Virus record (IMG/VR): IMGVR_UViG_3300025151_000127
Span: 1 to 36,216 of that record
Length of the DNA: 36,216 nt
From: a virus
Strand: one strand, 5' to 3'
Part shown: positions 8,796 to 35,517 of the stretch, one piece after another
Position numbering within the stretch: position 1 is the stretch's first letter
Layout: the number at the start of each line of letters is the position of its first letter
The notes under the pieces: model-generated
Database searches by the model: none
What the model was told of the DNA's origin: nothing
Seen by the model: the letters and a program-made list of their open reading frames with translations, nothing else
Translations under genes and position numbers: made by a program

Positions 8796-8854
8796 AGAAA
8801 GAGAGTTGCCGTAAGGGACTCTTTACCCCCTTGTCGAAAGAAAGGAGAAAAACA

Positions 8855-9280
8855 ATGGGAAACTTCTATTGGACTAATTTTGATTATGTTTGGAATAATC
8901 TCGATCTTGTCCTCCGAGACTGGCACCGAATGGTCGATGTGCCCAAGAAGCAATTAGCTTCACTTCCAAATTACCCCCACTCTGATTGTTGGGTAGATGA
9001 TGATTGTAACAAATTGTGGTTACGGTTTGCACTCGCTGGCTACGCGAAAGAAAATATTAGCGTAAAAGCCAGTAAAAATACTCTTAGAATCACCGCAACA
9101 GGAGAGGCAGAGAATGATGTCAAGTTCGTACATCATGGCATTAGCAAGAAAGATGTGGACTTTTCGTTGAATATTGACGAGGCTTTCGATTTAAAGAAAG
9201 CAAAAACTGATTTTGTAGATGGGCTCTTAACTATCGTTATTCCTAGAGCAAAGGAGGCAGAATTAGTGGATCTGATGTAA
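8855..9280 (+). CDS. Small heat shock protein, Hsp20/alpha-crystallin type
   Basis: The 141-residue protein has the alpha-crystallin core: LWLRFALAGYAKENISVKAS with the A-G-Y-x-K-E-x-I-x-V pattern, then LRITATGE, and the terminal strand DGLLTIVIPRAKE. Such proteins bind unfolding proteins without ATP, and related genes occur in T4-like aquatic phages. AAGGAG lies 7 nt before the ATG at 8855; an upstream in-frame TTG is less likely. Terminators on both sides make it a single-gene transcript, which suggests separate control and probably high expression. Confidence 0.85.
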   Translation: MGNFYWTNFDYVWNNLDLVLRDWHRMVDVPKKQLASLPNYPHSDCWVDDDCNKLWLRFALAGYAKENISVKASKNTLRITATGEAENDVKFVHHGISKKDVDFSLNIDEAFDLKKAKTDFVDGLLTIVIPRAKEAELVDLM

Positions 9281-11400: not shown

Positions 11401-12940
11401 GGAAAATGATGTCTTAAAGGAGTTTAAACGATGTAAGGAGGATCCTGCATACTTTATGTGTAAGTATGTTAAGGTAACACACCCTGTTCGTGGACTAGTC
11501 CCTTTTAAATTATACCCGTTTCAAGAAAGAATAGTTAAAGAAATAGAGATTAATCGTTTCAATATTCTTAGAAAATTCAGACAGGCTGGATGTACAACCA
11601 TTGCTTCAGCATATGCATTGTGGTTGGCAGTTTTTAAAAGAGATCAAGCTATTATTATCTTATCAAAAGGTGATACCGAAGCCACCGAGGTTCTTGACCG
11701 TATTAAAGTTATGTATGAAGAACTTCCTGGTTTCCTACAGCCAGGGATTACAGAAGACAACAAACATACGCTAAAATTAAAGAATAGATCAGTAATCAAG
11801 TCTAGACCTTCAGGAAAGCAATCAGGTAGATCTCTTGCTGGCTCCTTTTTGATCATTGACGAGGCTGCATTCGTTGAATCAATTGACACGATCTGGGCTG
11901 CTGTTTATCCAATTATCTCGACAGGAGGTAGAGCCTTTATTCTGTCTACTGTGAATGGTCTAGGTAATTGGTTTTACGAAACCTACACAAAAGCTGTTGA
12001 GAAAGCTAATTCATTTAACGCTATTGATATTAGATGGAAAGAACATCCAGAATACTATAGAACACAGGGCTTCGAATATATTTATGAAGAGATGGAAGCT
12101 AGAACTCCTCCTGCTGATATTGATGATTGGGCAAAGATTACCCAATCTAATATGCCTAGAAAACAATGGCTACAGGAATATGAGTGTGAGTTCTTAGGCA
12201 CGGGAGATACTTTTATTGATGGTATAGTCTTAGCAGGATTGATGGAGCAGGTTGATACTGAGTTTTATACAAAATATAATAATAGGATGCGCGTGTGGAA
12301 AGATCCAGAGCCCTTTTACGATTACATCATTGGGGTGGACACCGCGCTTGGGCGAGATCGTGACTACTCTGCGGCACAAATTATTAACATATATAACGGA
12401 GAAGTTGTTGCAGAGTTTTACAGCAACAAAACACCAATAAATGAGTTTGCCTCAATACTAAACACGGAAGGTCTTTACTATAATCTAGCAAATGTTGTTG
12501 TAGAAAGAAATACAGTGGGAAATCATGTGCTTGATTTGCTCTATAATGATTTTGAGTACGAGAATGTTTGGCACGATGATCGAGGCAACCCAGGATTCCA
12601 AGTGACATTAAAGAATAGAGATACTATTTTATCTGAGTTAGAAGAAAGTATTCGAACGAATGTATTAAAAATTAATTCCCAACGAACTTTAAATGAGCTA
12701 AATACTTTTGTAATAACTAACTCGGGTAGGATAAGTGCCGATAAAGGGAAGCATGATGATTTAATTATGAGTTTAACTTTGGCAAATCATGTCCTGAAGT
12801 CGGTTAGAGACAATTCTTTAGTAGAATTTAACCGGGATAGTGCTTTTAATAACGATAAAATGTATCCAAATAAACCGCAAATCCCTTTAATCTCCCATGG
12901 TGGGCAAAAAGTTGAAGATTTAAGATGGCTGATGAAATAG
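11399..12940 (+). CDS. gp17: Terminase large subunit, gp17-like
   Basis: The 513-residue protein is the DNA-packaging motor and headful nuclease. ATPase: RKFRQAGCTT (58-67) in the Walker A position, Walker B with Asp154-Glu155 (FLIIDEAAF), coupling motif ILSTVNG (181-187). Nuclease: GVDTA with Asp314, VVER with Glu369, and KHDDL with Asp453, the expected acidic triad. The Walker A Lys of GKT is Cys here; Lys59 or an Arg may take over, as in other variant phage terminases. AAGGAG lies about 8 nt upstream, inside the divergent glycosyltransferase gene. It is shorter than T4 gp17 (610) and overlaps the portal by 16 bp. Confidence 0.95.
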   Translation: MENDVLKEFKRCKEDPAYFMCKYVKVTHPVRGLVPFKLYPFQERIVKEIEINRFNILRKFRQAGCTTIASAYALWLAVFKRDQAIIILSKGDTEATEVLDRIKVMYEELPGFLQPGITEDNKHTLKLKNRSVIKSRPSGKQSGRSLAGSFLIIDEAAFVESIDTIWAAVYPIISTGGRAFILSTVNGLGNWFYETYTKAVEKANSFNAIDIRWKEHPEYYRTQGFEYIYEEMEARTPPADIDDWAKITQSNMPRKQWLQEYECEFLGTGDTFIDGIVLAGLMEQVDTEFYTKYNNRMRVWKDPEPFYDYIIGVDTALGRDRDYSAAQIINIYNGEVVAEFYSNKTPINEFASILNTEGLYYNLANVVVERNTVGNHVLDLLYNDFEYENVWHDDRGNPGFQVTLKNRDTILSELEESIRTNVLKINSQRTLNELNTFVITNSGRISADKGKHDDLIMSLTLANHVLKSVRDNSLVEFNRDSAFNNDKMYPNKPQIPLISHGGQKVEDLRWLMK

Positions 12941-14688
12941 AAAAAACCTTAGTTGAAGATGGTGGACAGAGCACTTTCGGCGGTATGCCTGGGCGTGGAC
13001 CTTACTTTTACCCAAGAGGGGCCTTAGGTAAGTGGTTTGCTAGGTTTTTTGCAACACCTGCCCAAGATGATTTAATAGCCAGTATTAACGATATTGAGAG
13101 TCCAGGGGTTGTTGGCGATACAAAAGTACAAAATACTGATATTAAAGATAATACAGGATTGGCCTTTACCATAAATCGAGCTACCCCTGTATACACGGAG
13201 ATTGAAAGAAATAGGAAATCTAGGTATAGAGAGTATGAGCAAATGGATGAGTATCCTGAAGTTGGTGCTGCTTTTGATGTTTATGCTGATGATTGTACCC
13301 AAAGAGATACACAGAGGAGGAGATGGTCAGTAAAATCTGATAGCCCTGAAGTGGTTAACGCTGTAGAGGATCTTTTTGAAAATATTCAACTAGACAGAGT
13401 GTATTACGATATTTTTAGAAATACAGTAAAGTTCGGTGATTGTTTTTTAGAGCTTATTGCAGATGTTAATAACTCCTCTGCTGGTATACAAAAGGTTAAG
13501 GTTTTAAATCCTAACTATCTGCTAAGGGTTGAAAATGAGTATGGCTACCTTAAAACCTTTATCCAACAAATTCCTGATAAGTTAACCACAGACACCTCCT
13601 TTGAAGATCAAAGTGAGTACGGGCTAAAAAATTCTAAGTTTGTGGAATTAGATAAAAATCAAATTGTTCATTTTCGTTTATTCACCTCTGATCCTAAGTT
13701 TTATCCTTATGGCAAGTCTGTTGCTGCTTACGGAGTACAAACATTTAGATCTCTTAGGATGATGGAAGATGCTATGCTTATCTACAGGCTGGCTAGAGCC
13801 CCTGAAAGACGCATATTTTACATTGATGTCGGAAATCTTCCCGCTAGTAAAGCCGAACTCTTTATGGAGCGTGTAAAAGAAAAATTTAAAAAAGAGAAAT
13901 ACTATAAAGGGAATGGTGTTAACGCAAGGTATAACCCTCTTGCAGCAGATGAGGATTTCTTTGTACCTATCAAAGGAAACCAAAGCACTAAGATTGAGAC
14001 TTTGCCTGGAGCTACCAATTTAGGCGAGGTTACAGATGTTTCCTACTTTAGGGATAAGCTTCTGGCCGCTTTGAAAGTGCCAAAGGACTTTGTTTCTGTA
14101 GACAAAGACAAATCAGCAGAAAGAAAAGCAAACTTATCAGAGCTTGATGTTAAATTTGCGAGAGCAGTTTCTAGGGTTCAGCATGAGGTAGAGGTAGGGT
14201 TAGAAATGATAGCTAAAAGACATTTAGCTATGAAGAATTTTCCCACTTCATTGATAAATTCTTTAAGAATTCAACTTCCCGATCCTTCTGATAGATTTAC
14301 AAAAAGAAAACTTGAGATTGACCAAGCTAGATTGGCAATTATTCAAACAGTAACACAAACTCAATTATTTCCTAAAGATTATATTTATAAAGAGTACTAT
14401 GAGATGAGTGAAGGGGAGATTCTAGTAGTTAAAGAGAAGCTTAAACAAGAGGCCGAGGAGTCTGCCTACCAACAACAAGAACTCAATCAAATTTCTCCTG
14501 GAGCAGGAGAAAGGCCTCAGGGCAATACCCCAGGTGGGATGGAGTCAGTTCCATCTCAAGAGCAAAGGCCTACAGAAGAATTAACTCACATACAGGAATT
14601 ACCCAAAAAACTACTAAAGGAGAATGGGTATAGGTCTCCTGAACAAAAAGTGTGGGAAAGAATTTTAACAAAAATAAAAAAATCTTAA
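12925..14688 (+). CDS. gp20: Portal protein, gp20-like
   Basis: This 587-residue protein forms the dodecameric vertex through which DNA is packaged and ejected. The order terminase-portal and motifs such as the acidic EYEQMDEYPEVGAAFDVYADDC, the stem region and FVSVDKDKSAERKANLSELD support gp20. It is somewhat longer than T4 gp20 (524). The N-terminus MADEIEKTLVED contains a Leu-x-Glu that could be a prohead-protease site, and the C-terminus is Gln/Pro-rich before a basic end. It overlaps terminase, so the two are co-translated. Confidence 0.93.
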   Translation: MADEIEKTLVEDGGQSTFGGMPGRGPYFYPRGALGKWFARFFATPAQDDLIASINDIESPGVVGDTKVQNTDIKDNTGLAFTINRATPVYTEIERNRKSRYREYEQMDEYPEVGAAFDVYADDCTQRDTQRRRWSVKSDSPEVVNAVEDLFENIQLDRVYYDIFRNTVKFGDCFLELIADVNNSSAGIQKVKVLNPNYLLRVENEYGYLKTFIQQIPDKLTTDTSFEDQSEYGLKNSKFVELDKNQIVHFRLFTSDPKFYPYGKSVAAYGVQTFRSLRMMEDAMLIYRLARAPERRIFYIDVGNLPASKAELFMERVKEKFKKEKYYKGNGVNARYNPLAADEDFFVPIKGNQSTKIETLPGATNLGEVTDVSYFRDKLLAALKVPKDFVSVDKDKSAERKANLSELDVKFARAVSRVQHEVEVGLEMIAKRHLAMKNFPTSLINSLRIQLPDPSDRFTKRKLEIDQARLAIIQTVTQTQLFPKDYIYKEYYEMSEGEILVVKEKLKQEAEESAYQQQELNQISPGAGERPQGNTPGGMESVPSQEQRPTEELTHIQELPKKLLKENGYRSPEQKVWERILTKIKKS

Positions 14689-18648: not shown

Positions 18649-18872
18649 TCCAGCATATGGTTTTGCATCAGAAGATGCAATAGCCTATCCGTATACTGCC
18701 CAATAAACATGTGTAGTTCTGTTTGTAGGTTATACAAGTTTTTTAGGCCTTCTCTTGATACGGGTGATTTTTCCTTGTATGTGCTTAGTCTAGTTGCTAT
18801 TTGTTTAATTTTTTGCTCATCTAGTTCATTTAAAACTAGCATTCTTTTCTTTATTTCATCTGAACTTTTCAT
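18645..18872 (-). CDS. Small helical protein downstream of uvsW, UvsW.1-like by position
   Basis: The 75-residue, entirely helical-looking protein (MKSSDEIKKRMLVLNELDEQ, then TRLSTYKEKS) follows uvsW with an ATGA overlap. T4 has a 76-residue UvsW.1 in exactly this place, so equivalence is plausible from size, fold type and position; I cannot confirm sequence similarity. It probably works with UvsW in recombination or replication. Confidence 0.5.
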   Translation of the reverse strand: MKSSDEIKKRMLVLNELDEQKIKQIATRLSTYKEKSPVSREGLKNLYNLQTELHMFIGQYTDRLLHLLMQNHMLD

Positions 18873-20230
18873 ATAGTCTTTACCTCATGTCCTTCTGCTT
18901 TATAGTGTTTTTTTCTTTCTTTAGAATGTTTTAGAAGATACTTTTCTTGATCATAGAAATCATAAACATAAACTTTGTCTTTAGTTTTGTGCTTTCTTAA
19001 TGCTCTACCGAGAGCTTGAAGCGTAGCTATTTCTGATTTCATTCCTCTGGCATTTATGAAGTGGGTGATTTCTTCAATGTTAACCCCTGTTTGCAGGATT
19101 TTAGTACCAATGAGGATGCTAGGTCCTCGATGTCCTCTGAATCGAGATATAGCTTCATACCTTTCTCCGATTGTATCGCACCCTTGCAGGAATTCACAAT
19201 TGCCTCCAAGTAAGTCTTCCAAGGCTCTTCCGTGATCAAGTGACTTGGTAAGTATAAGTATACGGGCTTTTTTGTTTTTATTTTTGATGTCATTTACTAT
19301 GTCCTTAATTATATTATTTCTAGAGTCATTTTTTACAATGTACTCTTCGTAAATATCTAAGTAACTCATTGCTTCATCCTGATTATTAGCAAGATACGGT
19401 CTTTCTATTATCTGGATAATTGGTTTTGTTAGTTTGCCTTTTTTAACTAATTCTTCGGTGCTTGCAACAGAGTATATAGACCCTAAACCCCCTAGTAGAT
19501 TATACTTAGGTATATCTTGGCTTGGGGGAGTCGCTGTAAATCCGTATCTATAGTTGGCTTGCGGGAAAGATTGTAAAGCCGCTACTGTTGTTTTTCCGTT
19601 AGAAAATTCATGACACTCATCTACCATCATGACCTCTGAATCTAGGTGGGTATCTAATACTTTTTCAATACTTTGAACTGTACAGAGCATGATCTCTCCC
19701 TCAATAAATCCTTCACTGAAGCACATCCCTAGGTTTTCAATGCCAATATCCTTTAAGAAGTCGTAGGTCTGTGTCAAAAGTTGCTTCGCATTAAATAGTA
19801 AAATCATCTTCCTTCCAGCGAGGGCTTTTACGAGACCTGCCATGATAATTGTTTTTCCTGATGCGGTAGGAGATTTAATAACCATTCTCTTTTTGTCTAA
19901 GCCTTCTTTGATTGTTTTTTCTTGATAGTCATAGTAGTTGATATTATCAAAATAGAAGTTATTATGGTCTGAGTTGATTTTTCTCTCATCTGTTATCGTA
20001 AAAGTCGCGTCTACCTTTTTTAAATCTTTTATTATCTGATCCAACAGGCCTGTTTTGAATGAGCCTTGTCTAGTAAAAAATCGTTTTTTTCCGTCCCAAT
20101 GCCTGCTTTTGTATTGAGGTGAGTACTCTGCTCCAGGGATCTTAAAGGCATACAAATTGTATAAAGCTTTAAGTAGCTTATCGTTATCTGTTACCAGTTG
20201 TGAATTAATCGTATTTATTCGTATCTCCAT
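18869..20230 (-). CDS. uvsW: UvsW-like RNA/DNA helicase
   Basis: This 453-residue SF2 helicase unwinds R-loops and branched DNA and shifts T4-like phages from origin- to recombination-driven replication. The N-terminal region (about 1-95, with the basic KSRHWDGKKRFFTR) matches the UvsW DNA-binding domain. Motif I PTASGKT is at about 121-127, then VDECHEF (DEAH-box variant), GFTATPP, and motif VI with QALGRALRKHK. Length is close to T4 UvsW (503). TATAAT on the minus strand lies 7 nt before the ATG. It is divergent from the gp26-like gene with only 29 bp between them. Confidence 0.93.
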   Translation of the reverse strand: MEIRINTINSQLVTDNDKLLKALYNLYAFKIPGAEYSPQYKSRHWDGKKRFFTRQGSFKTGLLDQIIKDLKKVDATFTITDERKINSDHNNFYFDNINYYDYQEKTIKEGLDKKRMVIKSPTASGKTIIMAGLVKALAGRKMILLFNAKQLLTQTYDFLKDIGIENLGMCFSEGFIEGEIMLCTVQSIEKVLDTHLDSEVMMVDECHEFSNGKTTVAALQSFPQANYRYGFTATPPSQDIPKYNLLGGLGSIYSVASTEELVKKGKLTKPIIQIIERPYLANNQDEAMSYLDIYEEYIVKNDSRNNIIKDIVNDIKNKNKKARILILTKSLDHGRALEDLLGGNCEFLQGCDTIGERYEAISRFRGHRGPSILIGTKILQTGVNIEEITHFINARGMKSEIATLQALGRALRKHKTKDKVYVYDFYDQEKYLLKHSKERKKHYKAEGHEVKTI

Positions 20231-20259: not shown

Positions 20260-21012
20260 ATGAATGATCAAATTCCACAACCTGAGGTGCTATCAGAAGA
20301 GGAACAACTAGCACAACTATTAGAGCATCTCCCCGCTGAGTCAGATGTTTTTGTACAAGTCCCTTCCAAGGGGCTACCTTACTTTAACAAAATCTCACCT
20401 GTCCAAATTAGACCATTAACTTTTGCTGATGAGAAGGCTCTTAGCACAGGAACAAGAGCGCCTAAGTTTAACGCTGCTAATTATTTATTAGATAAGTGCG
20501 TTTTGAATGTTAAGATTGATCATCTCCTTATGATGGATAAGCTATTTCTTTTGCTTAAACTAAGGGAAATCTCTTACGGTAATGATTATAACATCAAAGT
20601 ATCCTGCAAGCATTGTAATTACGAAAACCAGTTAACTTTGGAGTTAAATAAGCTTTTGTGTAATTATGTTCCTGATGACATGGATTTTAAGAATAGAACG
20701 GTATATTTAGATAAAATCAAAAAAGATGCAACCATCTCTCTTCTTACTGTTTCAGATGAACTGTATTTAGATAAAGCAGATATCTATAGTAATCTATGGA
20801 GATTTGTTCATAAATTAGGAGACATTGATAATCAGGCTATTATTCAAAAAGCTATCAGTAAACTTCCTATCTCTGATGTGCATCAGTTAGTTAACGGTCT
20901 CACGTTATCTAATTACGGTATTCAGCCACAAATTAGATTTAACTGTGATTCTTGCACACAATCAAACCTCATCAATCTACCAATAGACGAAAATTTTTTC
21001 TCGGTGAACTAA
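20260..21012 (+). CDS. gp26: gp26-like baseplate hub assembly protein
   Basis: The 250-residue protein fits the T4 gp26-type hub family. Its N-terminal VFVQVPSKGLPYFNKISPVQIRPLTFADEKAL is the usual opening (positions 31-62), and SYGNDYNIKVSCKHCNYENQ has a CxxC pair that with a second pair (FNCDSCTQ) near the end forms a likely four-Cys zinc site. It is needed to build the central hub rather than being a main structural part. GAGG precedes the ATG. Near its 3' end AAATTTT (20991-20997) is in phase for -1 slippage into the next ORF; unshifted ribosomes end at 21012. Confidence 0.8.
   Translation: MNDQIPQPEVLSEEEQLAQLLEHLPAESDVFVQVPSKGLPYFNKISPVQIRPLTFADEKALSTGTRAPKFNAANYLLDKCVLNVKIDHLLMMDKLFLLLKLREISYGNDYNIKVSCKHCNYENQLTLELNKLLCNYVPDDMDFKNRTVYLDKIKKDATISLLTVSDELYLDKADIYSNLWRFVHKLGDIDNQAIIQKAISKLPISDVHQLVNGLTLSNYGIQPQIRFNCDSCTQSNLINLPIDENFFSVN
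20991..20997 (+). promoter_or_regulatory. Candidate -1 ribosomal frameshift site A_AAT_TTT
   Basis: The heptamer fits X_XXY_YYZ in the gp26 reading frame (GAA AAT TTT). Slippage by -1 opens the frame to 21194, adding 65 residues and giving a product of about 311. The continuing ORF has no ATG or good ribosome site. A small CTAAA/TTTAG stem lies about 11 nt downstream as a possible stimulator. Confidence 0.65.
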
Positions 21013-21194
21013 ATGGTGGTTTAGAATTAAAAAATTTGCTGCATGAAGCCTATATACTGGTGAAACATGTAGGTTTGTCCTACGGTGACGTTAAATCGCT
21101 ATCTAGGACAGAAAGATCTACATTTATACAACTTCTAAGCGAAGAAAACCAGAGAGAGCAAGATGCCATTAATAAACACAACCGAAGTAATTGA
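20997..21194 (+). CDS. Frameshift extension of gp26-like protein, tail-chaperone-like
   Basis: This segment is in the -1 frame relative to gp26 and is reached by slippage at AAATTTT. It encodes about 65 residues, including NLLHEAYILVKHVGLSYGDV, SLSRTERSTFIQLL and a charged helical end. Helical segments with S-Y-x-D-V and a following E-R-x-x-F recall the short downstream domains of frameshifted tail chaperones such as lambda GT and P2 E+E'. Independent start codons in this frame are only TTG, without ribosome sites. The end overlaps the next gene's start by 32 bp. If not a fusion, it could be a separate gp51-like protein. Confidence 0.6.
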   Translation, partial: FLGELNGGLELKNLLHEAYILVKHVGLSYGDVKSLSRTERSTFIQLLSEENQREQDAINKHNRSN

Positions 21195-22149
21195 TCGTAA
21201 CAGCAGACCGCAGGTTCAATCTAGGGTCATGCTTAGATCTTTTTTCTTAAATGATGGGCAGTACCAAGATCCTTATGCTATTAGTTCTGTCCATGTATTT
21301 AAGAGAAATGAAAATTTATCCCCCTCTACCGTATTAGACACATCTACGGAACTAGTGGCTTCTGGGTCAACCTCGGCAGCGGCAATGGTCTTTGGTCCAA
21401 GTGCAAACGGTGTCATAGGTGAGGATACCTCCTTCAATGAGAGTAATTACAAAGGGAATGTTTTTGCTTCGCCTCCATCTCTTGCGCCTTGCTCTGGAGC
21501 TAGTGGGATTTACAAGCTTGGGACAGGGGAGTTTGCAGTCGTACTGAATGGAATTTCAGGCTCCTCTTTGTCAGGTATTGATCAAAACGGAAATCCCATA
21601 AACAATACAGCATCACAAGCTACCAGGTACATTGATGTTTGGACAGTTAAGTTGACCGAAGGGAGCGATTGGAAGACTTATATTAATGAAGTAGAGTTAT
21701 TTGATAATACCTTCATGAGTATTACTGAGCCTCTCTTGCTTAGGGCTAAAAATACATTAGCTAATAGACAAGTTATAAATGGATCAAAAGTAGATCTAAA
21801 GATTGGAACAGAGATTACTGTTGAAAATAGAAACATAGACTCATCAGTAAAAAATATATTTAAGTCTGCATTAATTACTGACGCAAGTATTCAGGTCCAA
21901 AAGGTAAACGATGACCCAAATCTCCCAGGAAGATATGATGTTGTAGATACCACTGTTGATTATGTCACCTCTGACAACACTTTGATATACTCCTTTGATA
22001 CATCAAGTACATTACAGAGCGGAGACGGTCTTCCTACTTTCGAGTTTGATAAGCTTGGAGGAAAAAGAGGTACTTATGCGGTTAGGGTTTATTATACTAT
22101 GGTTTCTGAAAAAATAGTAAGTCCTTGGATGTATTTTATTGTTAAATAA
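21163..22149 (+). CDS. Tail-region structural protein (328 aa), unrecognised
   Basis: The protein starts MPLINTTEVIDRNSRPQVQS and has a polar, beta-rich composition with SVHVFKRNENLSPSTVLD and a C-terminal FEFDKLGGKRGTYAVRVYY strand pair. No signal or membrane segment is present. It follows the hub-assembly gene and precedes the 182-aa protein, and its style fits a tail or baseplate component. No known family was recognised. Confidence 0.6.
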   Translation: MPLINTTEVIDRNSRPQVQSRVMLRSFFLNDGQYQDPYAISSVHVFKRNENLSPSTVLDTSTELVASGSTSAAAMVFGPSANGVIGEDTSFNESNYKGNVFASPPSLAPCSGASGIYKLGTGEFAVVLNGISGSSLSGIDQNGNPINNTASQATRYIDVWTVKLTEGSDWKTYINEVELFDNTFMSITEPLLLRAKNTLANRQVINGSKVDLKIGTEITVENRNIDSSVKNIFKSALITDASIQVQKVNDDPNLPGRYDVVDTTVDYVTSDNTLIYSFDTSSTLQSGDGLPTFEFDKLGGKRGTYAVRVYYTMVSEKIVSPWMYFIVK

Positions 22150-22740: not shown

Positions 22741-23742
22741 TCATAGGTTTCGTAAAGACTTATTATCAAAATTATACTCGTAGGTTTTTTCCATAAACCA
22801 TTCATATAAGTCTTCGTCGGCAATGTGAGCTTCATTCCAATCTTTATACCTGGAGGGAGGAGTACAGATTGAGAAAGTAGGCATCATGTATTGTTTTCTA
22901 AGACGCTCAAATTTCTCTACACCTTTTGTTCCTGCCTCATCATTATCGTAAGCCAGGATTACTCTTCCCTCAAACTCCCGTAGTGTTTGCATTTGAATTT
23001 CGGAGATTGTGCTACCCATTGTGCATGTGGCATTTAAGCCGTTTAAATTCAATGAGATCGCATCTGCGGGGCCTTCGCAAATACATAGGTGATCCTGCTC
23101 AAAGTCGAAGGGGTATAAAATATTGCTGGATTTTACGCCATTTTCTGAGTTAGGATTTAGGTACTTGGGTGTTAGGTCATGCATCAGGCTTCTAGCTTGA
23201 AAAAAGAAGATCTCACCCTCGTAATCTTTGAATGGGATGATTAGTCTCCCCCTGTATTTTCCAGAAGGGGCAACATAGTAAGGGGATTCAACAAACTCCT
23301 TACTGTTGAACATTTTTCTATCCATCAAAAACTTCCAAGCTCTTAAGACTAAGTGGTTTTCTGAATCATAGCTGTTAATGTTTACAGGTATAAATCCACT
23401 AGTGTCTAGTTTTTGATGTGTAATGTCCTGAGGGATAGCAGTAATTTTTTTATCTTCCCAAAGGTCCCACATCCCTGATTCGGCAGCCTGGAATAGCAGC
23501 TTAGACTCGGCTGATTTATACGATACCTCCTCTAGAATCGAATAAAGTTTTATGAAATTACCTCTCTGGTCAGTCTTAAAGCACTGCCAAAGACCTGACT
23601 CTAGATTAATGCTCATGTGCCTTTTGTAGTCATGCTCTATAAATAAAGAGGGGATCATAAGCTCCCGATTATTTGAAGATATACGGTAATCGCATTGCAA
23701 CTTCTCTAGAAGGTAGTCTTTAATATACTGAGGATTGAACAT
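22741..23742 (-). CDS. DnaG-type DNA primase with TOPRIM domain
   Basis: The 333-residue protein has TOPRIM motifs: CICEGPADAIS with Glu223, NATCTMGSTIS, and ILAYDNDEAG with Asp266 and Asp268, the metal-binding residues that synthesise RNA primers at the fork. GLWQCFKTDQRGNFIKLYSI (50-69) is the remnant of the zinc-ribbon region, apparently with too few Cys for a full zinc site. Length agrees with T4 gp61 (342). Its ATG directly abuts the ATG of the divergent Cas4-like gene (CATATG), so its promoter must lie inside that gene. Confidence 0.9.
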   Translation of the reverse strand: MFNPQYIKDYLLEKLQCDYRISSNNRELMIPSLFIEHDYKRHMSINLESGLWQCFKTDQRGNFIKLYSILEEVSYKSAESKLLFQAAESGMWDLWEDKKITAIPQDITHQKLDTSGFIPVNINSYDSENHLVLRAWKFLMDRKMFNSKEFVESPYYVAPSGKYRGRLIIPFKDYEGEIFFFQARSLMHDLTPKYLNPNSENGVKSSNILYPFDFEQDHLCICEGPADAISLNLNGLNATCTMGSTISEIQMQTLREFEGRVILAYDNDEAGTKGVEKFERLRKQYMMPTFSICTPPSRYKDWNEAHIADEDLYEWFMEKTYEYNFDNKSLRNL

Positions 23743-32368: not shown

Positions 32369-35050
32369 ATGGCACTAATTAATCCTCAAATGTTTACGAA
32401 CCCTGCTTTGTTTTTGACAACTCAGTACGGCATTCCAAAATGTGCAACCAATTTCGGTGTTGATGTTTTGCAGTTTATGGGTGGTGGATCACTAAATGCT
32501 TTGACCCGAGCTTTACAGCAAGGTAGAAATACGGCAAGGCAGACTGTAGCAGATTTCGTTAATAAAGTTTTTAACGACACAGGAATTATCTCGTTCAATG
32601 TGGGTACTGGTAAGTTTGAATTATTTTCTCAATCTTCGACAAATGGTTTTGATATAGATTGGCTAGAGACAGCCGCTAACTGGACAGGTCAGATAAACGC
32701 TTTTTTTGAGGCTGGAGAAGCCTTAGTAGAGGGCTTTGAAGAGGTCCAGGATTGTTTAGCTCAATTCGGAGCTTGGCTGGATAGCGGAGGGCCTCTTGAT
32801 GGGGCTGGTTTTGGTGGGATTAATTCTACTTATGGAGGAAATCAGTACACAGAAAACTCAAAACAAGCAGCTTTTGCTTTAGCGCAATCACAAATACAAG
32901 ATGCCTTAGACTTTGCAGGTAAATGCTCTGACCAGTTAGAGATCATTGGTCAGATTTTATATCAACGACAACTAGAAGCGGCTGCTGCCGCTGAAGATGA
33001 AGGGCCTATCTTTAGATTAACCTTCGGTCCCCCAGTATCTAAGCAGGGATTATTTATTTTATCTGAAGACGGTCTTTACTTCGATTCACAAGAGAGACTT
33101 TACAATGGAAAAGAGATTCCCTCTGCTTCTGATATTGGGTTTGTTGTTGACAGCGAAAAATGGAATTTAAATTATCCTCCTAGCCTTGGAGGAAAAGGAA
33201 CCATTATCACTGTCGATCAATTAAATGATTATGTAAATACTATTTTTGATTTATCTTACATTGATAACTCTACAGAGCTACAAACTTTCTACGCTAAAGA
33301 TTATTTCTTAGCTGTGCTACAAGAACAAAAAGATAAACTTGTATCTGATTCTGAATCACAAGTCACCGAGCTACTAAGCGATGGGTATACTGAGGACTCT
33401 GCTTTGGTAGTAAATACAAAGCAAAGCCTCTTTTCTGTTATCTCCTCTTATGCAGAAAAGGAAGATAAGAGGAAAAAACAAATTGAGATCGCTGTAAAAT
33501 CTGCTGATCTATTAGGATCTAGTGAAGTATTCGAGCCAGGACAAATCCCCGTAAATGATTTCTCCTTCTTGAGCAGTGTGGCTGTAAATATTCCGATAGA
33601 TAAACAGAAACAGTTATCTTTCGATTCGGGTGAGGTGTCTGGTGTGGTTCTCCCTATTAAGCCTAAATTTGTTAGAAACTACGGGACTAACTCAAACGCG
33701 CTTCTTTCCCCAGTAGTAGTTCCCCCCGTAGGCTTAGGCTCGATTATATTTAATCCCTCGATAAATGCACAATCAGCCCCTGCTGTATCGCTTACTGATT
33801 CTATTTCAACAAGTGGATTGTTTGCAGTATATAACTTTTTAAAAGGCAACACCCTAGACCCCTCATCAACACAGTATAATGTAGTTAACCCTGCAAACCC
33901 TGGGGCAGACTTAGATGGTCAGTTGGTTGGTGTCGCTCAAAATGTTTTCAAGGCAGGATTAGGCGTTCCTTTCTTAGGTGGGATTACCAAGATAGATACC
34001 ACAACTGCTAATATTACAAAATCAGCAGGTTACTTTAGATTACCATCCAGCAAAGAATTTCAAAATTTAATGTATAACCCAGATGGATGCAGTATTGATT
34101 GTTGGTTACACATTCCTTATTTTGCGTATAATCAAACTAGACAAGAGGAGGATCCAACTGCACCCGCAAGATTAAAAAACACAAATACTGGTGCGTGGAC
34201 TGATTATAATTATTATAGAATTTTGTTAGGCAATGAGAATACTGGAGGGTTACCTCAAGCAAGTAATGTTAGCTCTCTAACAACTTCTAATCAAAAGGAG
34301 ACCACAAAGGGTGTTCTTATTGGATTCACGCGAGACCCTGTTATTTTCTCTGATCAAGCCATAATCCCAGGACCTAATACTAATCCTGGACAAAACGCTA
34401 ACTTAGCGTCTTCTGCAACCGTTTCATCCTCTTGCTTCTTTATTGCTCCTACACAATCATTTGGAACTTCCGCAGTCGAGTTTGTTCCTAAGGTGAGCGA
34501 TTGCAGCTTTACTGGATTCCATAAAATGAAGGTTGATGTTTCTTCTACCTTATCAAATGGAAAGTCGTTGTCTGATGTATCTTCAACATATATTCATCTG
34601 CACATAGCATTAAATGTTCCTAAAGATGAATGTAATATTTATTTAGATGGAAGTCTACTTTCCACTTCTGCTATCTCCGATGTATTTGGAGTTCAATCAT
34701 TTACATCCCCTAAAGTGCCTACCTTTATTGTTCCTAAAGATAAGCCTAATAGTAGCTTTTATTACAGTTCTGCTACGGTAAATCAAGCGCCTGGAGTTAC
34801 CTCTTTTGATAGCGGTCCACAAAATGATACCTATTTTACTCCTTGGATAGTGGGTGGTGGGTGGACTGAAGGATCACCTATTGATTTCTCCACCAGTTCA
34901 GGCGGGTTTATGGGTAACAGGCATGGATACACGGGTAGTTTACATGGGCATGTTGGAAGTTTAAAGTTTTATTCTCGACCCCTAACTACTAAGGAAGTGC
35001 TCCAAAATTATGAAGCTCAGAGCGGCTTCTTTAAAAATATAGAGATATGA
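32369..35050 (+). CDS. Large tail/baseplate protein with LamG-like C-terminal domain
   Basis: The 893-residue protein has an N-terminal region with helical Ala/Gln/Asn-rich segments and a C-terminal half with a concanavalin/LamG jellyroll: GYFRLPSSKEFQNLMYNPDG, SIDCWLHIPY, YIHLHIALNVPKDECNIYLDG, and finally GHVGSLKFYSRPLTTKEVLQ. Such domains bind sugars or pack as surface plates. Position between spike and gp25 suggests a peripheral baseplate or fibre-network role. It overlaps gp25 by ATGA. Confidence 0.7.
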   Translation: MALINPQMFTNPALFLTTQYGIPKCATNFGVDVLQFMGGGSLNALTRALQQGRNTARQTVADFVNKVFNDTGIISFNVGTGKFELFSQSSTNGFDIDWLETAANWTGQINAFFEAGEALVEGFEEVQDCLAQFGAWLDSGGPLDGAGFGGINSTYGGNQYTENSKQAAFALAQSQIQDALDFAGKCSDQLEIIGQILYQRQLEAAAAAEDEGPIFRLTFGPPVSKQGLFILSEDGLYFDSQERLYNGKEIPSASDIGFVVDSEKWNLNYPPSLGGKGTIITVDQLNDYVNTIFDLSYIDNSTELQTFYAKDYFLAVLQEQKDKLVSDSESQVTELLSDGYTEDSALVVNTKQSLFSVISSYAEKEDKRKKQIEIAVKSADLLGSSEVFEPGQIPVNDFSFLSSVAVNIPIDKQKQLSFDSGEVSGVVLPIKPKFVRNYGTNSNALLSPVVVPPVGLGSIIFNPSINAQSAPAVSLTDSISTSGLFAVYNFLKGNTLDPSSTQYNVVNPANPGADLDGQLVGVAQNVFKAGLGVPFLGGITKIDTTTANITKSAGYFRLPSSKEFQNLMYNPDGCSIDCWLHIPYFAYNQTRQEEDPTAPARLKNTNTGAWTDYNYYRILLGNENTGGLPQASNVSSLTTSNQKETTKGVLIGFTRDPVIFSDQAIIPGPNTNPGQNANLASSATVSSSCFFIAPTQSFGTSAVEFVPKVSDCSFTGFHKMKVDVSSTLSNGKSLSDVSSTYIHLHIALNVPKDECNIYLDGSLLSTSAISDVFGVQSFTSPKVPTFIVPKDKPNSSFYYSSATVNQAPGVTSFDSGPQNDTYFTPWIVGGGWTEGSPIDFSTSSGGFMGNRHGYTGSLHGHVGSLKFYSRPLTTKEVLQNYEAQSGFFKNIEI

Positions 35051-35517
35051 CGAACACCACCACCACCTACGGGGTCTTGCCCTCACAGAGAATAAAAGAC
35101 CAAATAAACAACGCCAATCCTTCTGAGGAAGTAAAGGGTGTAAGGTTCCCTTTATTTGATAAAGACAACGCTGCGAAAGGTATTTTTAGCCAAACCGCAG
35201 GAATTGAGATGCTTAGAGGGCAGGTGATCCAACTGCTACAAACTGGCGGCGACGAAAGACTAATGCTGCCTAACTTTGGAGTGAACCTAGAAGAGTTTTT
35301 GTTTGAGCCTCTCACCGAAGAAGTTGTTTTAAATATAAAAACGAGAGTGGCTACAGCGATATACGACTACATTCCTGATGCTCAGATAAAAGATATGCAA
35401 GTTAAATTAATTGATGAAGGCTCGGCGTTTGGGTTGCCAGGTATTAGAATCAGTTTGTCCATTTTTTCTTTAGAATTCCAAACAGATACAGAGGTAACTG
35501 TTTACCATAGACCATAA
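35047..35517 (+). CDS. gp25: Baseplate wedge gp25-like
   Basis: This 156-residue protein shows the gp25 core: EMLRGQVIQLLQTGGDERLM, LPNFGVNLEEFLFEPLTEEV and ATAIYDYIPDAQIKDMQVKL. These lie at the sheath-baseplate contact and anchor the first sheath ring. Length is close to T4 gp25 (132). It overlaps the preceding stop by ATGA and is followed 12 bp later by gp6. Confidence 0.9.
   Translation: MTNTTTTYGVLPSQRIKDQINNANPSEEVKGVRFPLFDKDNAAKGIFSQTAGIEMLRGQVIQLLQTGGDERLMLPNFGVNLEEFLFEPLTEEVVLNIKTRVATAIYDYIPDAQIKDMQVKLIDEGSAFGLPGIRISLSIFSLEFQTDTEVTVYHRP

Follow-up and report, generated by a model that had tools for sequence, protein, structure and literature searches.

Tail assembly chaperone genes that use a −1 slip are known in many tailed phages and are in print for relatives of T4, and the locus described here adds a distant new branch. 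Frameshifting of the G-T kind has been described as widely conserved "except T4" (Atkins et al. 2016), and a 2010 review lists gp26 and gp51 of T4 alike as hub assembly chaperones. A 2022 paper had already identified the tail assembly chaperones of T4-like phages (Vladimirov, Gautam and Davidson, as cited in PMC10885494 and PMC12846349), and according to the authors of PRFect, who draw on it, some T4-like phages carry a short gene together with a long, fused one, with no frameshift. A tail-chaperone role in T4-like phages, put forward as new in the first-pass annotation of the DNA analysed here, had therefore already been published, although the locus itself is a new and divergent member of the group.

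The DNA in question is a viral stretch of 36,216 nucleotides (IMG/VR record IMGVR_UViG_3300025151_000127), hereafter the window. We consider it highly probable that one of its plus-strand loci encodes the tail assembly chaperone of a distant T4-like contractile-tailed phage, made in a short and a long form by −1 frameshifting. Judged from sequence comparison, this frameshift is very probably conserved and programmed.

The gp26-like gene and its 3' end

The proposed short form is the product of a zero-frame ORF of 250 amino acids (20260-21012, plus strand), which matches the Pfam family T4_baseplate (PF12322; E 3.4e-13, 50.2 bits against a cut-off of 24.5) and phrog_150 (E 9e-16). In a viral structure library, its AlphaFold model (mean pLDDT 82.5) matched the gp26-like protein of SP-15 and many T4-like hub proteins, with a best E of 3.9e-16. 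A Foldseek search of the PDB with the model gave nothing at E <= 0.001, and the gp26 profile matched nothing among PDB sequences. When the model was realigned to 489 PDB chains, only two exceeded Z 4, both of them weak matches: 3klu, or YqbN (Z 5.2, rmsd 3.0, 80 residues aligned, Foldseek E 2.8), over model residues 26-108, and 2ob9, the HK97 tail assembly chaperone (Z 4.4, rmsd 4.0, 88 residues aligned, Foldseek E 3.4), over residues 9-110. YqbN is itself called a chaperone in PMC9603447, and the predicted structure is suggestive of a tail-chaperone fold. As for gene order, the tape measure gene follows the gp26-like gene directly, or after one or two small genes, in the annotated phages LIS04, immuto and Cr30, and in LIS04 and immuto, as annotated, the gp26-like gene lies between the tail tube and tape measure genes. 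Pfam and PHROG matches identified neither of these two genes in the window.

The gene that comes next in the window (21163-22149, plus strand, 328 amino acids) overlaps the end of the extension described below, and a similar ORF follows in the relatives L001, L105 and L109. It had no match in Pfam and one weak match in PHROG (E 0.017). The neighbours on the minus strand are a UvsW-like helicase and a DnaG-type primase (18869-20230 and 22741-23742), around which the order of ORFs is the same in L001 and L109. Farther away, the window encodes an Hsp20 small heat shock protein (8831-9280; phrog_432, E 9.3e-16) and a baseplate wedge subunit (35047-35517; phrog_261, E 4.3e-11).

The 3' end of the gp26-like ORF reads GAC GAA AAT TTT TTC TCG GTG AAC TAA, so that two overlapping X XXY YYZ heptamers lie in frame before the stop: A AAT TTT (20991-20997, plus strand) and T TTT TTC (20994-21000, plus strand). 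The first-pass annotation had proposed the former (GAA AAT TTT) as the slippery site; it is indeed in the zero frame, 12 nt before the TAA at 21010-21012, and the second heptamer, 9 nt before the stop, had been missed. On its own, AAATTTT is nothing special, since the window holds 23 copies of it against 27.3 expected. Past the slip, the −1 frame forms the extension (21000-21194, plus strand), proposed to be the gp51-like C-terminal domain of the long form. That frame is free of stops over 20949-21194, which gives 64 codons past the slip, followed by a stop, and 60 past the gp26 stop. The extension contains no ATG, but TTG 21036, GTG 21060 and TTG 21075 are present. Among the 36 plus-strand ORFs taken as genes, three have an X XXY YYZ heptamer within their last 12 codon positions, and the gp26-like ORF is the only one of the three whose −1 frame runs for at least 50 codons beyond the stop. 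The portal gene (12925-14688) has an in-frame AAAAAAA near its stop, where the −1 frame closes after 3 codons and no long product results.

Conservation of the slip site and of the extension

A single-protein search of the IMG/VR viral contigs with the window's gp26-like protein found no relative. L001 was found by searching with the extension, and a two-sequence extension profile (A4) led to 12 IMG/VR loci, the L001 contig included; together with the window, these make up the window-type set of 13 loci, in which L109/L110, L111/L112 and L114/L115 are near-duplicates. As the loci were found by extension patterns, one of them FFLGELNG, the extension and partly the junction Phe-Phe were selected for; codon register and gp26 frame were free of selection by these patterns. 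The heptamer T TTT TT[C/T] is in register in 13 of 13 loci, the stop starting 10 nt past its last base, and in each of the 12 contigs beyond the window the zero-frame ORF ends in ...FFSV[SN] and the −1 extension continues for 58-62 codons. AAATTTT, on the other hand, occurs in only two of the 13 (the window and L001, hence one of 12 when the window is set aside), and was dropped as the working heptamer. The conserved heptamer is TTTTTTC.

The gp26 proteins of the window and L001 are 54% identical. Across gp26 and the extension, the longest run of identical DNA between the two is 26 nt (20983-21008) and spans the slip site; amino acids shared by the two are encoded by the same codon in 8 of 9 cases at the gene end, versus 58 of 123 elsewhere (binomial tail ~0.013). 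For the extension, pN/pS between the window and L001 is 0.31 overall and 0.49 over the first 20 codons, the differences number 18, 5 and 19 by codon position, and the other two frames contain 5-6 stops, a pattern which indicates that the extension evolves as a protein in the −1 frame.

Moreover, a profile of 10 extensions, the window's included (A10), was aligned by hhalign to the cyanophage gp51 set (A5) with an E of 6.5e-7 (prob 92). Five of these 10 members, but not the copy from the window, matched phrog_634 (best E 0.0015, with hits counted up to E 1). By the homology of the profiles, the extension is the domain annotated separately as "gp51" in cyanophages. A helical domain had been anticipated for it, and three helices are indeed predicted, in a model of low confidence (mean pLDDT 66.3). 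A match to DUF6760 (PF20546), which would have pointed to extracellular injection systems, was weighed and dropped, its scores of 15.5 and 16.2 bits falling below the Pfam cut-off of 27.

A much larger group was reached with the gp26 profile (A3), which matched at least 598 loci in IMG/VR. In all of the best 80 of these at least 598, referred to as cyanophage-type, T TTT TT[C/T/A] (55 C, 24 T, 1 A) lies at most 10 nt before the stop, at a distance, by the script's count, of 1 in 15 loci, 4 in 64 and 10 in one, and a −1 extension of 55-66 codons is present. Together, these 80 loci and the 12 window-type contigs support the proposed −1 frameshift between the gp26-like gene and the start-less ORF downstream, and with it the tail-chaperone reading.

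We also compared 20 loci, comprising the window, L001 and 18 phage records picked to sample broadly three sets of matches (6, 657 and 15 records). The −1 pattern with the T heptamer was observed in 13 of the 20 (window, L001, C48C1, S-SM2, P-HM2, Melnitz, phiN3, Cr30, YB07, XacN1, CZ01, S-SSM4 and ACG-2014d), and an extension in the +1 frame in five (LIS04, LR756508, GXN1, SP-15 and immuto). Slickus01 (L006), with a +1 frame running 44 codons beyond the stop, and LR756511 (L016), with an ATG at the stop, belong clearly to neither group and were left out of both counts; T4 and Erwinia phage Cronus, which have separate genes, stand outside the 20-locus comparison. Locus L117 shows neither pattern and has an ATG at +26 in its −1 frame ORF. 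Among the phages examined, no annotated record has a joined gene at this place, and the genes annotated "gp51" or "baseplate hub assembly" in L007, L008, L009, L010 and L011 are the −1 extension with downstream starts given by the annotators.

In the +1 group, SP-15, GXN1, immuto and LR756508 have TTT C at the Phe codons, which would permit a +1 shift on TTT, and LIS04 has TTT A. The same arrangement, with T-runs of 7-8, was found in three loci from prokaryote bins (L118, L119 and L120). The frame alone leaves +1 and −2 indistinguishable. In L003, L004, L005, L015, L017, L118, L119 and L120 the +1 (or −2) extension sets in at this Phe-Phe pair too, and no start codon is near the junction. On balance, we lean towards a shift site that has stayed at the Phe-Phe pair but is used in different directions by different clades, −1 in the window type and the cyanophages and +1 (or −2) in LIS04, SP-15, GXN1, immuto, LR756508 and L118-L120, with T4 having dispensed with the shift through a fused second gene. 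Conservation of the site under an apparently changing direction thereby becomes testable by reporter.

The proposed frameshifting and the alternatives to it

Candidate stimulatory elements flank the slip site. GGAG or GAGG is found at most 22 nt upstream of it in 47 of the 80 cyanophage-type loci, its end almost always 10-11 nt away from the heptamer, and where a Glu precedes a Gly just upstream of the slip it is encoded by GAG in 45 of the 62 cyanophage-type loci with that pair, whereas in the rest of the genes GAG makes up 424 of 1590 Glu codons. In dnaX-type stimulators, GGAG or GAGG stands at a similar upstream spacing. No SD-like element was seen upstream of the slip in the window. Downstream folding, assessed in every second cyanophage-type locus (40 of 80), was on average stronger than that of synonymous recodings (mean z −1.73, with values between −5.1 and +1.2), and was not significant by this comparison in the window (z −0.17) or L001 (z +1.13). 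Window-type loci have, in addition, a candidate stimulatory stem of 7 bp that begins 7 nt past the heptamer (plus strand; 5' arm 21008-21014, A7 columns 15-21; 3' arm 21034-21040, A7 columns 41-47). In 10 sequences, 92.9% of its cells are paired, versus 16-34% for slid versions, and 8 cells are changed on both sides versus 2.7 in shuffles, none of 500 reaching 8, the sequences being related to one another. Three pairs have double changes, which is within the ordinary range of the shuffles (99 of 500), and the stem is weak in the window and L001.

Following the cyanophage annotation, the extension could instead be a separate small gene (gp51) that is translated by reinitiation past the gp26 stop, from an internal or non-ATG start. 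Starts suited to this do occur: in 34 of the 80 cyanophage-type loci the −1 frame has an ATG no more than 5 codons after the slip, and separate translation is therefore possible in these; Cr30, CZ01, YB07 and phiN3 have an ATG at the gp26 stop or within 10 nt of it, which could be a coupled start; and the window's GTG at 21060 corresponds in position to an ATG in L001. Relatives with an ATG or without the slippery site had been named beforehand as evidence that would tell against frameshifting, and on this the outcome is mixed, as the former exist among the cyanophage type while the slippery site is kept in 80 of 80. In 29 of the 80, moreover, the first ATG comes at codon 15 or later or is absent, and in eight there is no ATG, GTG or TTG for 15 codons. 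We nevertheless judge reinitiation unlikely. In each of the 11 window-type loci other than the window and L001 (L105-L115, with the three near-duplicate pairs), the first ATG, GTG or TTG of the extension is at codon index 28-40, which leaves at least the first 28 codons with none, whereas purifying selection acts on the first 30 codons (pN/pS 0.26-0.45 in each of the 5 pairs computed). Reinitiation would leave this selected stretch untranslated. Conservation also starts at the slip itself, and the register of the heptamer does not vary among the 80 cyanophage-type loci or the 13 of the window type.

This invariance bears as well on transcriptional, as opposed to ribosomal, slippage on the T-run. 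The run is 6, 7 or 8 T long, and its first base is the first base of the heptamer in all 80 cyanophage-type loci; lengths of 7-8, found in 24 of the 80, would suit slippage during transcription, but the run has only 6 T in 56 of the 80 and in the window. Furthermore, all 93 loci (80 cyanophage-type and 13 window-type) share one register, which fits ribosomal tandem slippage because that process needs a register and transcriptional slippage does not, and we hold the latter to be very unlikely. Finally, a base lost from the homopolymer might have split one long gene, in a pseudogene or through an assembly error, as the window is a metagenome contig with a homopolymer at the junction. We give this hardly any credence, as the same junction recurs in 12 other window-type contigs, in 80 more IMG/VR contigs and in the isolates S-SM2, P-HM2 and Cr30.

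Ribosomal −1 frameshifting therefore remains our preferred reading. The site, its conservation, the selection acting on the −1 frame from the slip onward and the homology of the domain are seen in the sequences, and from them we infer that ribosomes shift, how often they do so, and how the products may act. Most ribosomes would terminate at the TAA of the gp26-like frame, yielding the short form. The rest, a minority, would undergo tandem −1 slippage on T TTT TTC, the two tRNAs re-pairing from TTT TTC to TTT TTT, pass the stop and add a putative helical domain of ~64 residues, whose homologues are cyanophage gp51 and the C-terminus of T4 gp51. If the two forms act as G and GT do in lambda, the tape measure protein would be coated by the short form, and tail tube subunits would be recruited by the added domain.

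Comparison with known chaperone systems

In phage records, the extension domain is either missing or entered on its own as a "baseplate hub assembly catalyst". Reading it as the long form of the chaperone would correct the annotation in many T4-like phages, and would give a simple account of why T4 seemed an exception to the tail-chaperone frameshift. T4 gp51 (249 amino acids) matches PF12322 over residues 1-201 (E 3.9e-52) and phrog_634 over residues 147-246 (E 1.2e-23), and its residues 199-245 align by hhalign to the cyanophage extensions (E 5e-7). On these alignments, T4 gp51 is a gp26-like protein with the extension domain fused to it, and T4 thus has a short gene and, separately, a long, fused one. 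The PF12322 gp26-like domain is found in both T4 gp26, the short form, and gp51, the long one, whose C-terminus is homologous to the cyanophage −1 extension; however, T4 has two genes on opposite strands, the long one being a plain fusion, whereas the window has one gene with a proposed frameshift.

The cyanophages (Kyanoviridae) share with the window T TTT TT[C/T/A] at the end of gp26 and the −1 extension, but their gp26 and gp51 are annotated as two genes, or the second is omitted, and the gp26 of the window is only distantly similar to theirs. For lambda G/GT and P2 E/E', no sequence similarity to the window is claimed, and their slippery sequences differ from the window's. Phage Adele belongs to another phage family (Vandenendeviridae) and is likened to the window by its described features, not by sequence; in its chaperone locus, the short gene has been described as having a poly-T −1 signal near its stop, and the extension had earlier been annotated as a separate hypothetical gene (PMC12846349).
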